This document shows positions 16,685 to 23,782 of a DNA stretch of 64,000 nt, piece by piece. Position 1 is the stretch's first letter; every line of letters starts with the position of its first letter. The notes under the pieces were generated by a model that worked only from the letters and a program-made list of their open reading frames with translations, was not told the origin of the DNA and made no database searches. The stretch is from Desulforamulus hydrothermalis Lam5 = DSM 18033 (GTDB lineage Bacteria > Bacillota > Desulfotomaculia > Desulfotomaculales > Desulfotomaculaceae), in assembly GCF_000315365.1 (NCBI RefSeq), contig NZ_CAOS01000010.1, forward strand, positions 62,001-126,000. The letters are read 5' to 3'. A program made the translations under genes and the position numbers.

Positions 16685-18460
16685 ATGAAAGAACTTCTCT
16701 CCGGCAATGCTGCCATTGCCCGCGGCGCCTACGAAGCGGGCGTGACGGTGGGGGCCGGTTATCCCGGCACCCCCAGCACAGAGATTTTAGAAAACTTTGC
16801 CCGCTACCCGGGCGTTTACGCCCAGTGGTCACCCAACGAAAAAGTCGCCCTGGAAGTGGGGGCGGGCGCTGCTATCGCCGGGGCCCGGGTGCTGGTGACC
16901 ATGAAACATGTGGGAGTAAATGTGGCCGCCGATCCCCTGTTCACATTGTCCTACACCGGCGTAAACGGCGGTTTGCTGCTGGTGTCTGCCGACGATCCCG
17001 GCATGCACAGCTCGCAAAACGAGCAGGACAACCGTTATTACGCCCTGATGAACAAAATTCCCTGCCTGGAACCGGCCGACAGCCAGGAAGCCAAAGACAT
17101 GGTGGGCCTGGGTCTGGCCATCAGTGAACAGTTTGATACCCCGGTGATGCTGCGGCTTACCACCCGCATTTCCCACTCCCAGGGTTTTGTGGAATTAAAG
17201 GAGCCGGTGCCCTATAACCGGCGCCCCTACAGCAAAAATCCCCAAAAGTACGTAATGGTGCCGGCCCACGGCCGGCTGCGCCGGGTCTTTTTGGAAGAGC
17301 GGCTGGCCCGGCTTAAGGAATACAGCGAAAACTGCCCGGTTAACTTTATTGAATGGGGGGACCGCAGCCTGGGCGTTATCACCGGCGGCATCAGCTACCA
17401 GTACGTTAAAGAAGTGCTGCCCCGGGCTTCCGTACTTAAGTTGGGGCTGACCAACCCGCTGCCGGAAAACCTGATCCGGCAGTTTGCCGCCGGCGTGGAG
17501 CGGCTGCTGGTCATAGAAGAGCTGGATCCCTTTTTGGAACTGCAAATCCGGGCCCTGGGCATCCCGCTGCAGGGCAAAGAACTGCTGCCTGCCTACGGCG
17601 AACTCAGCCCGGCTCTGCTGGCCGAGCGCCTGTCCCGGGCGGGTATAGCGGTGGCGCCTGAGGTTGCGGTGACAGCGGCAAGCGATCAGGCAGCCGCTGC
17701 CGCCGATTTGCCCGGCCGTCCCCCGGTCATGTGTGCCGGCTGCCCGCACCGGGGCGTGTTTTACATCCTGAAAAAACTGAAGCTGGTTGTCAGCGGCGAT
17801 ATTGGCTGTTATACCCTGGGCAGCCTCAGCCCCCTCAGTGCCATGGACACCTGCATTTGCATGGGGGCCAGCATCGGGGCCGCCCTGGGCATGGAGAAGG
17901 CCGACCCGGAACTGGCCCGCCGCACCGTAGCGGTGATCGGCGACAGCACCTTCCTGCATTCGGGCGTAACCGGTTTAATGGATGTGGTTTACAACGGCGG
18001 CACGTCCACCGTGCTGGTATTAGATAACCGCACCACCGCCATGACCGGTCACCAGGAAAACCCGGCCACCGGCACCACCCTGCAGGGCCGGCCGGCTCCC
18101 GAGACAGACCTGGCTGCCCTGGCCAAAGCGGTGGGGGTTAAGCGGGTGCGCACGGTAGACCCCATGAATCTGGCAGAAATCGAAGCAGCCGTTAAAGAAG
18201 AAGTGGCAGCACCGGAACCGTCGGTCATCGTTTGCCGGCGCCCCTGCATGCTGCTAAAGAAAAACGCCCCGGGCCAGCCGGTGGCAGTGGATGAGGCGGT
18301 TTGCGTCAATTGCGGCCTGTGCTTGCAGCTGGGCTGCCCGGCCATTTCCCGCCGGGACGGCAAAGCCGTCATCAACGCCATCCAGTGCAGCGGCTGCGGC
18401 CTGTGCCTGCAGGTTTGCAAACCGGGTGCGATCACAAAGCGGGGTGAAGAAAATGCTTAA
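16685..18460 (+). CDS. iorA: Indolepyruvate ferredoxin oxidoreductase, alpha subunit
   Basis: 591 residues. Oxidatively decarboxylates arylpyruvates to aryl-CoA, reducing ferredoxin. The N-terminal pyrimidine-type domain starts LLSGNAAIARGAYEAGV; the TPP-binding domain contains GDIGCYTLGSLSPLSAMDTC near 375 and GDSTFLHSGVTG. The C-terminus has a ferredoxin-like domain with CVNCGLCLQLGCP and CSGCGLCLQVCKP. ATG with SD AGGAGG. It overlaps iorB by 8 nt. Confidence 0.95.
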   Translation: MKELLSGNAAIARGAYEAGVTVGAGYPGTPSTEILENFARYPGVYAQWSPNEKVALEVGAGAAIAGARVLVTMKHVGVNVAADPLFTLSYTGVNGGLLLVSADDPGMHSSQNEQDNRYYALMNKIPCLEPADSQEAKDMVGLGLAISEQFDTPVMLRLTTRISHSQGFVELKEPVPYNRRPYSKNPQKYVMVPAHGRLRRVFLEERLARLKEYSENCPVNFIEWGDRSLGVITGGISYQYVKEVLPRASVLKLGLTNPLPENLIRQFAAGVERLLVIEELDPFLELQIRALGIPLQGKELLPAYGELSPALLAERLSRAGIAVAPEVAVTAASDQAAAAADLPGRPPVMCAGCPHRGVFYILKKLKLVVSGDIGCYTLGSLSPLSAMDTCICMGASIGAALGMEKADPELARRTVAVIGDSTFLHSGVTGLMDVVYNGGTSTVLVLDNRTTAMTGHQENPATGTTLQGRPAPETDLAALAKAVGVKRVRTVDPMNLAEIEAAVKEEVAAPEPSVIVCRRPCMLLKKNAPGQPVAVDEAVCVNCGLCLQLGCPAISRRDGKAVINAIQCSGCGLCLQVCKPGAITKRGEENA

Positions 18461-22002: not shown

Positions 22003-22024
22003 GCCGCCGCCGTCAGGCGGCGGC
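22003..22024 (+). other. Perfect GC hairpin between dsrB and dsrD
   Basis: GCCGCCGCC-GTCA-GGCGGCGGC forms a 9-bp all-GC stem with no T run, so it is more likely an mRNA processing or stability element than a terminator. The left edge of the duplicated segment (22,023) falls on its 3' arm, so it may also have stopped sequencing reads. Confidence 0.6.
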
Positions 22025-22077
22025 ATCTCAACATTTTACCACCCGTAAGGATGGTAGGAAACGGTGGTGTTATTAAA

Positions 22078-22296
22078 ATGGAAGAATTAAAAGCTAAAAT
22101 CCTGGCCTATCTGGAAGGCGTAAGCAAGGAAAAGCCCCGCGTCATTGCCGAAAAAATCGGCGCCAACAAAAAAGAAGTTGACAAGGCTTGCTCCGAACTG
22201 GCCAAAGAAGGTAAAGTAGAATACCTTTACATCGGTACCTCTTACGTAACCCTGGCCGGCAAAGACCACACCCCCGGCAAACTGAAAGAAGAATAA
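22078..22296 (+). CDS. dsrD: DsrD (sulphite reductase-associated protein), copy 1
   Basis: 72-residue winged-helix protein that accompanies dsrAB in sulphate reducers. DsrD has been described as stimulating sulphite reduction by DsrAB; it is not a subunit. It starts MEELKAKILAYLEGVSKEKP and carries a helix-turn-helix-like KPRVIAEKIGANKKEVDKA. ATG at 22,078 rather than the earlier GTG because the nearest SD-like sequence (ACGGTGGTG) sits just upstream. It is identical to the copy at 22,796; only one probably exists in the genome. Confidence 0.93.
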   Translation: MEELKAKILAYLEGVSKEKPRVIAEKIGANKKEVDKACSELAKEGKVEYLYIGTSYVTLAGKDHTPGKLKEE

Positions 22297-22306
22297 ACAC
22301 TTACCC

Positions 22307-22467
22307 AAAGGGCGGCGCCAGCCGCCCTTTAGGCTGTAGACAAAGGTTGTAACACAAAGCGAGGCGGTTTTGTGATTCCTGCCGGTGCGCAGACCGGAGC
22401 CAAAGGGGGGCATAAACCGCCGGAAATGTTTGTCGACACTCTGAAGGGCGGTATGAGCCGCCCTTTT
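22307..22467. repeat. Short structured repeat between two matching terminator hairpins
   Basis: The dsrD terminator AAAGGGCGG...CCGCCCTTT (22,307-22,330) is followed by a short repeat core (22,331-22,443: GCGGTTTTGTGATTCCTGCC, a GCCGGTGCGCAGACCGG hairpin, a CATAAACCGCC arm, GTTTGTCGACACTCT). A second hairpin (22,444-22,467) has the same arms but a different loop (TATGAG versus CGCCAG) and a five-T tail. Arms of the first and second hairpins could also pair with each other across the core. Confidence 0.7.
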
Positions 22468-22549
22468 TGCATGGTGCCTGCTCCAAAGTTGTTAAGTTGC
22501 TTGTATTTGCCCGAATTATAGAGGATACACTATCTGGGGAGGGCTTGCA

Positions 22550-22633
22550 ATGGGGCAAGACGTACTGGTAACCGTTAAAGGTACCCGCCGGGATGCAGAC
22601 AGCCCGCCGGAAACCATTGAAGTGGTATCGCCG
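22550..22633 (+). pseudogene. 5' fragment of DUF1934 gene cut by the linker
   Basis: ATG with SD GGGGAGGG; 28 codons read MGQDVLVTVKGTRRDADSPP and on to EVVSP, a clean match to what I know of DUF1934/YwiB N-termini, then the frame enters the loxP-containing sequence. It is the truncated twin of 23,268-23,353 and appears to hold the correct version of that sequence. Confidence 0.85.
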
Positions 22634-22675
22634 CGTAATAACTTCGTATAGCATACATTATACGAAGTTATACGA
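22634..22675 (+). other. loxP site within a 454 paired-end linker-like 42-mer
   Basis: 22,638-22,671 is an exact loxP: 13-bp arms ATAACTTCGTATA and TATACGAAGTTAT around spacer GCATACAT. The four bases on each side (CGTA before, ACGA after) also match the 454 Titanium paired-end circularisation linker as I remember it. loxP belongs to phage P1 and would not be expected in a Firmicute chromosome. It is almost certainly untrimmed library linker; a Cre-lox scar is the less likely alternative. Confidence 0.95.
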
Positions 22676-22744
22676 CAGCATGCGGCAGGTGTTTGAACCG
22701 GGCCAAAGCCACCGTTCTGTTTACCAAACCGGCTTCAGCAGCAT
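22676..22744 (+). repeat. Second tag: copy of the DUF1934 gene middle
   Basis: 69 bp identical to 23,489-23,557, inside the DUF1934 gene. It joins the second duplicated segment through the 4-bp overlap GCAT (22,741-22,744), as expected from a spurious contig join after a linker-containing read. Confidence 0.9.
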
Positions 22745-22795
22745 CTCAACATTTTACCACCCGTAAGGATGGTAGGAAACGGTGGTGTTATTAAA

Positions 22796-23014
22796 ATGGA
22801 AGAATTAAAAGCTAAAATCCTGGCCTATCTGGAAGGCGTAAGCAAGGAAAAGCCCCGCGTCATTGCCGAAAAAATCGGCGCCAACAAAAAAGAAGTTGAC
22901 AAGGCTTGCTCCGAACTGGCCAAAGAAGGTAAAGTAGAATACCTTTACATCGGTACCTCTTACGTAACCCTGGCCGGCAAAGACCACACCCCCGGCAAAC
23001 TGAAAGAAGAATAA
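22796..23014 (+). CDS. dsrD: DsrD, copy 2 (probable assembly duplicate)
   Basis: Base-for-base the same 72-codon gene as at 22,078. Perfect identity including flanks, next to a library linker, argues against a genuine paralogue. If the duplication were real, it would be a very recent tandem event. Confidence 0.7.
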   Translation: MEELKAKILAYLEGVSKEKPRVIAEKIGANKKEVDKACSELAKEGKVEYLYIGTSYVTLAGKDHTPGKLKEE

Positions 23015-23024
23015 ACACTTACCC

Positions 23025-23185
23025 AAAGGGCGGCGCCAGCCGCCCTTTAGGCTGTAGACAAAGGTTGTAACACAAAGCGAGGCGGTTTTGTGATTCCTGC
23101 CGGTGCGCAGACCGGAGCCAAAGGGGGGCATAAACCGCCGGAAATGTTTGTCGACACTCTGAAGGGCGGTATGAGCCGCCCTTTT
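23025..23185. repeat. Short structured repeat, duplicate of 22,307-22,467
   Basis: Identical to the element after the first dsrD, displaced by 718 bp. It should be counted once if the duplication is artefactual. Confidence 0.7.
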
Positions 23186-23267
23186 TGCATGGTGCCTGCT
23201 CCAAAGTTGTTAAGTTGCTTGTATTTGCCCGAATTATAGAGGATACACTATCTGGGGAGGGCTTGCA

Positions 23268-23714
23268 ATGGGGCAAGACGTACTGGTAACCGTTAAAGGT
23301 TACCCGCCGGGATGCGGACAGCCCGCCGGGAAACCATTGAAGTGGTATCGCCGGGTACCTACTACTGCAAAAACAACAACCTACTACTTATTTTACCGGG
23401 AAACCAGCCCTCACAGGGCATGGATGATACCACCACCCCCATTTAAAAGTGACGGCCGGACAGTCACCGTCATAAGAAACGGCAGCGTCAGCATGCGGCA
23501 GGTGTTTGAACCGGGCCAAAGCCACCGTTCTGTTTACCAAACCGGCTTCAGCAGCATGGAAACAGTAATCTGTCCCTGGCAGATTGAGGTTGACTTGACA
23601 GAGCATGGGGGAAGTATTAAGCTAGAATATGAGTTGGTCTTGGCCGGTGTGCCGGCAGGCACCAATAGCTTGGAAATTACGGTAAAAAAATTATTGCCGG
23701 CGAGCAAATCATAG
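23268..23714 (+). CDS. DUF1934 (YwiB-like) protein, internally frameshifted
   Basis: 148 codons. The start (MGQDVLVTVKG) and the second half (RTVTVIRNGSVSMRQVFEPG, then LTEHGGSIKLEYELVL) match the DUF1934 beta-barrel family, whose Bacillus member ywiB also precedes argS. Residues ~12-62 do not fit: they are out of frame. Comparison with 22,550-22,633 shows two extra bases (near 23,300 and 23,329). The family pattern implies four more (near 23,371, 23,411, 23,417 and 23,444). The six single-base insertions cancel, so the ORF stays open. Function of the family is unknown to me. Confidence 0.82.
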   Translation: MGQDVLVTVKGYPPGCGQPAGKPLKWYRRVPTTAKTTTYYLFYRETSPHRAWMIPPPPFKSDGRTVTVIRNGSVSMRQVFEPGQSHRSVYQTGFSSMETVICPWQIEVDLTEHGGSIKLEYELVLAGVPAGTNSLEITVKKLLPASKS

Positions 23715-23782
23715 GGCTGTGGGTGCGTTGACCGGAGCTAAAGGGGATTATAAAGCACAATTAATGTTTGTCAACACTCTGG
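23715..23782. repeat. Right-half copy of structured repeat
   Basis: Directly after the DUF1934 stop: GGTGCG-TTGACCGGAGCTAAAGGGG, then ATTATAAAGCACAATTAATG and GTTTGTCAACACTCTGG. It is the right arm only, with no left arm upstream. Confidence 0.6.

Follow-up and report, generated by a model that had tools for sequence, protein, structure and literature searches.

A loxP site within a complete 454 Titanium paired-end linker at the dsr locus of Desulforamulus hydrothermalis Lam5: an assembly artefact

Recombination sites of the loxP type are carried by phages of the P1 group, and the same 34-nt element is part of the circularisation adaptor of the Roche/454 GS FLX Titanium paired-end protocol. 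In such a library, sheared fragments are given loxP adaptors and their ends are joined by Cre, so that the reads are composed of a left tag, the linker and a right tag. The order expected of a simple mate-pair read from such a circle, with the right tag lying upstream of the left tag in the genome, is not required to recognize the linker. The 42-nt adaptor and its reverse complement are the sequences printed for the adaptor screening of mate-pair libraries that were prepared by the 454 protocol with Cre and the Roche circularisation adaptor (PMC5199103), and a second paper gives the identical 42-mer for the adaptor in a Cre/loxP mate-pair library (PMC5710592).

We analysed a window of 64,000 nucleotides from Desulforamulus hydrothermalis Lam5 (contig NZ_CAOS01000010.1), a bacterium whose dsrAB genes mark it as a sulfate reducer. 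The first-pass annotation had reported an exact 34-bp loxP at 22,638-22,671, extended by its flanks to the 42-nt 454 Titanium linker, and both statements are borne out by comparison with the printed sequence. The loxP (22638-22671, minus strand) has 0 mismatches, with 0 such sites expected by chance in shuffled sequence, and it is embedded in CGTAATAACTTCGTATAGCATACATTATACGAAGTTATACGA (22634-22675, plus strand), which agrees with the Roche/454 adaptor in 42 of 42 bases, in the orientation of the second adaptor listed in PMC5199103. The window thus contains the full linker, more than the 34-nt loxP alone. The sequence itself shows no difference from the adaptor; what deviates is the order of the tags around it, which is non-canonical in the window and canonical at a second copy in the same genome.

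The loxP of bacteriophage P1 has the identical 34-nt core, but in the P1 context only 37 of the 42 bases agree with the linker, and the right flank in P1 is ATTAAG rather than ACGA. Although P1-group phages do carry loxP, no natural lox site of P1 or its relatives agrees with the linker in more than 37 of the 42 bases, no homologue of Cre, which the replicon of such an element should encode, was found in the genome, and the surroundings of the site are the dsrAB-dsrD-argS core locus. A P1-like prophage or plasmid with a natural lox site is therefore a vanishingly unlikely source.

The organism was sequenced under the name Desulfotomaculum hydrothermale. Its published Newbler assembly combined 454 single reads and Sanger reads with 106,386 Titanium 8-kb mate-paired reads and gave 16 contigs with 2,706,432 bases (PMC3569332); the assembly analysed here also has 16 contigs, with 2,694,005 bases, 12 kb off the published figure. 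A Titanium mate-pair library was therefore in use in this very project. It is as good as certain that the loxP of the window is a 454 Titanium paired-end linker that was left untrimmed in at least one mate-pair read and was accepted as genomic sequence by the assembler or the finishers. The earlier suggestion that library DNA had remained in the assembly is supported by the published linker sequence, by the recurrence of the linker with the same kind of damage elsewhere in the genome, by its presence in 10 unrelated assemblies and by the use of Titanium 8-kb mate pairs.

The linker is enclosed by a tandem duplication whose period is 718 nt and which contains dsrD, a gene of sulfate respiration, twice. 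The period is composed of 611 nt of a first loop-body copy (22023-22633, plus strand), the 42 nt of the linker and 65 nt of the right tag (22676-22740), i.e. 676 nt of genomic sequence plus the linker, and the repeat begins at 22741. The first, redundant copy comprises dsrD (22081-22296, plus strand, 71 aa), a spacer and a 5' piece of a gene of the DUF1934 family, whose frameshifted fragment (22550-22633, plus strand) runs into the linker. The second copy (22741-23353, plus strand) is joined correctly to the downstream DNA, follows the gene order of the relatives and is the reliable one; it carries an identical dsrD (22799-23014, plus strand) and leads into the intact DUF1934 gene (23268-23714, plus strand, 148 aa; Pfam PF09148, E 3.8e-20), which has homologues in 8 members of the genus and spans the tag ends at 23353 and 23489. 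In the 60 nt before the linker, copy 1 differs from copy 2 by two 1-nt deletions of the homopolymer type (in GGTT and in CGGG) and one substitution, which shift the DUF1934 frame; these errors have the look of a single uncorrected 454 read.

Sequence comparison confirms the tag positions that had been proposed: the left tag, which corresponds to sequence up to 23353, stops at 22633, and the right tag, in the same orientation, begins at 22676 with the equivalent of 23489. Both tags come from the same genome and recur in the assembly without the linker, as do those of the second copy. The right tag starts 135 nt downstream of the end of the left tag, so that the canonical circle order is not observed in the window. 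The right tag proper (22676-22744, plus strand) is identical to 23489-23557 and has its final 4 nt, GCAT, in common with the beginning of copy 2; after 65-69 nt it jumps back to the equivalent of 22023/22741. This second chimeric junction with GCAT microhomology (22741-22744, plus strand; equivalent to 22023-22026 and 23554-23557), like the 718-nt duplication as a whole, is absent from the first-pass annotation. The same neighbourhood contains copies of a dispersed intergenic repeat, at 22336-22443 (again at 23054-23161) and at 23717-23781. Its 15-mer TTTGTYRACACTCTG occurs 36 times in the genome, as compared to 0 occurrences of the reversed control; the short copies, which extend from CTGTAGACAAAG to TTTGTCGACACTCTG, have imperfect inverted ends, and several of them lie between or beside terminator-like hairpins. 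The repeat looks like a MITE-like or terminator-targeting element.

According to the proposed mechanism, the read in the window would have run from genomic position 23353 into the linker, then through 23489-23557, and across the second, linkerless junction at the shared GCAT to 22741. A read or template that joins a point to another point upstream of it would make the assembly path circle once, so that the loop body appears two times, separated by the linker; one tour round a short mate-pair loop could in this way produce a false tandem duplication containing dsrD and a broken DUF1934 fragment. We infer that a single chimeric read or template caused the join in the window and that its second junction arose during ligation or amplification of the library; the 23557-to-22741 junction may stem from two fragments that were ligated before circularisation, from template switching during amplification, or from a joining of two reads over untrimmed linkers. 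The non-canonical position of the right tag fits a chimeric template, and since the second junction leads back to 22741 and restores the loop, the unusual order counts against a simple read and not against contamination. The suspicion, raised in the first-pass annotation, that the read itself is chimeric therefore holds, on the evidence of both the tag order and the second junction.

A variant of the artefact deserves separate mention. A 42-nt linker is long enough to serve as an overlap in overlap assemblers, and the assembler may have joined two different reads through their untrimmed linkers instead of following one chimeric read. This would explain the non-canonical order of the tags in the window and a small gap at the third linker of the genome, but by itself it leaves unexplained both the second, linkerless GCAT junction and the fact that the joined tags are neighbours in the genome. 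We consider such a two-read join possible, though rather unlikely.

Another possibility is that the linker is a contaminant while the tandem duplication of dsrD is real, the linker-bearing read having merely fallen on the junction of the duplication. Two relatives (G004 and G005) do carry a second dsrD-like gene, but in these genomes it is found at a distant locus or on another contig. In five genomes of the same genus the order dsrA-dsrB-dsrD-DUF1934-argS is kept with one dsrD at the locus, and therefore the tandem pair is peculiar to the Lam5 assembly and the first dsrD is an artefactual duplicate. Moreover, the boundaries of the duplication coincide exactly with the linker and the tag junction, its period equals the sum 611+42+65, the read-type errors are confined to copy 1 next to the linker, and a second linker shows the same geometry. 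A real duplication is thus highly unlikely, and as far as sequence allows we reject it, since period and ends fit the linker loop exactly.

Beyond the window copy, two further linkers, absent from the first-pass annotation, were found in the genome. The second is exact (contig C1, 91018-91059) and is located inside a gene for an HI0933-like flavoprotein; the left tag is found again 547 nt downstream and the right one 548 nt upstream, which is the canonical circle order and as expected for a small Cre-circularised fragment. The loop duplicates 548 nt of the gene and splits it, the difference between the two copies is one C in a run of C, and following the single path with the loop removed restores a frame of 435 codons. 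The same one-loop path would account for both the 718-nt duplication in the window and the 548-nt duplication on C1. The third linker (contig C3, about 249957-249998) contains read errors, namely an inserted base and altered first bases, and causes a frameshift close to the N-terminus of an MFS transporter; comparison with the homologue in the relative G006 (RLPNEKIDNEYKRLR) suggests a loss of roughly 15-20 nt of genomic sequence, or about five codons. All three linkers are internal to contigs, and their number comes from pattern searches, which a heavily corrupted fourth copy could have escaped. In 40 related genomes no lox-like site with up to 2 mismatches was found, and the genomes of the same genus carry no loxP.

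The three sites also bear on the alternative noted in the first-pass annotation, a scar of Cre-lox excision in an engineered strain. An exact loxP is present, as such a scar would require, but the three sites interrupt three unrelated genes and each retains bases of the kit flanks, instead of marking a targeted locus with vector or marker remnants. Local flanks are duplicated or missing, no vector or marker sequence was seen in the surroundings that were read, raw-read-type errors stand beside the linker, and the source is probably an environmental type strain. A search of the genome for a Cre homologue, with a positive control that worked, found none. The scar is extremely unlikely and we discard it; an engineering scar and a natural lox system alike appear excluded as far as such data can exclude them.

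Untrimmed 454 linkers in other public records provide a close parallel. The 42-mer occurs in 138 copies, in 109 stretches of 10 unrelated species-representative assemblies: Ca. Paracaedibacter symbiosus, a Rickettsia endosymbiont MAG, Legionella tunisiensis, a Gemmata sp., Kitasatospora cheerisanensis, an Agrobacterium, Litoribacter populi, a Paenibacillus, Clostridium sartagoforme and Streptococcus macacae. Copies for which a tag is found again farther away are nearly always in circle order, with the left tag recurring downstream or the right tag upstream, a reading of direction that leaves out 61/62- and 101/102-nt votes as false, probably due to runs of N. The C1 copy follows this rule, whereas the window copy departs from it for the right tag; furthermore, many of the linkers in the other assemblies are located at contig ends, in contrast to the internal ones of Lam5. 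In Litoribacter populi, the linker and 81-87 nt of other DNA form tandem arrays near the starts of scaffolds, with units of 129 nt and 123 nt and four linkers each (stretches L021, 194-709, and L046, 147-557). The RefSeq record of Lactococcus phage Q33 (NC_049809.1) contains 41 of the 42 linker bases at 17544-17584, where the annotated portal protein gene ends, which is probably the same contamination. The exact 42-mer is also present in four IMG/VR viral contigs, and therefore linker contamination has reached viral collections. A literature search turned up no clear example of a published survey devoted to this contamination of public genomes.

As outlined above, the loxP of the window is an assembly artefact and not biology. 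Screening with the 42-mer is simple, and it picks out 10 further species-representative public assemblies as well as a RefSeq phage record that agrees in 41 of 42 bases. Three kit linkers appear to have stayed in the reference assembly of this sulfate-reducing type strain, with the consequence of a false second dsrD and a broken DUF1934 fragment at the dsr locus and, elsewhere in the assembly, of a split gene for a flavoprotein and a transporter with a broken N-terminus. The practical content of this finding is a correction of the assembly, with one dsrD at the locus instead of two and with two other damaged genes, and studies of gene counts or gene duplication in dsr loci could be misled by the false dsrD.
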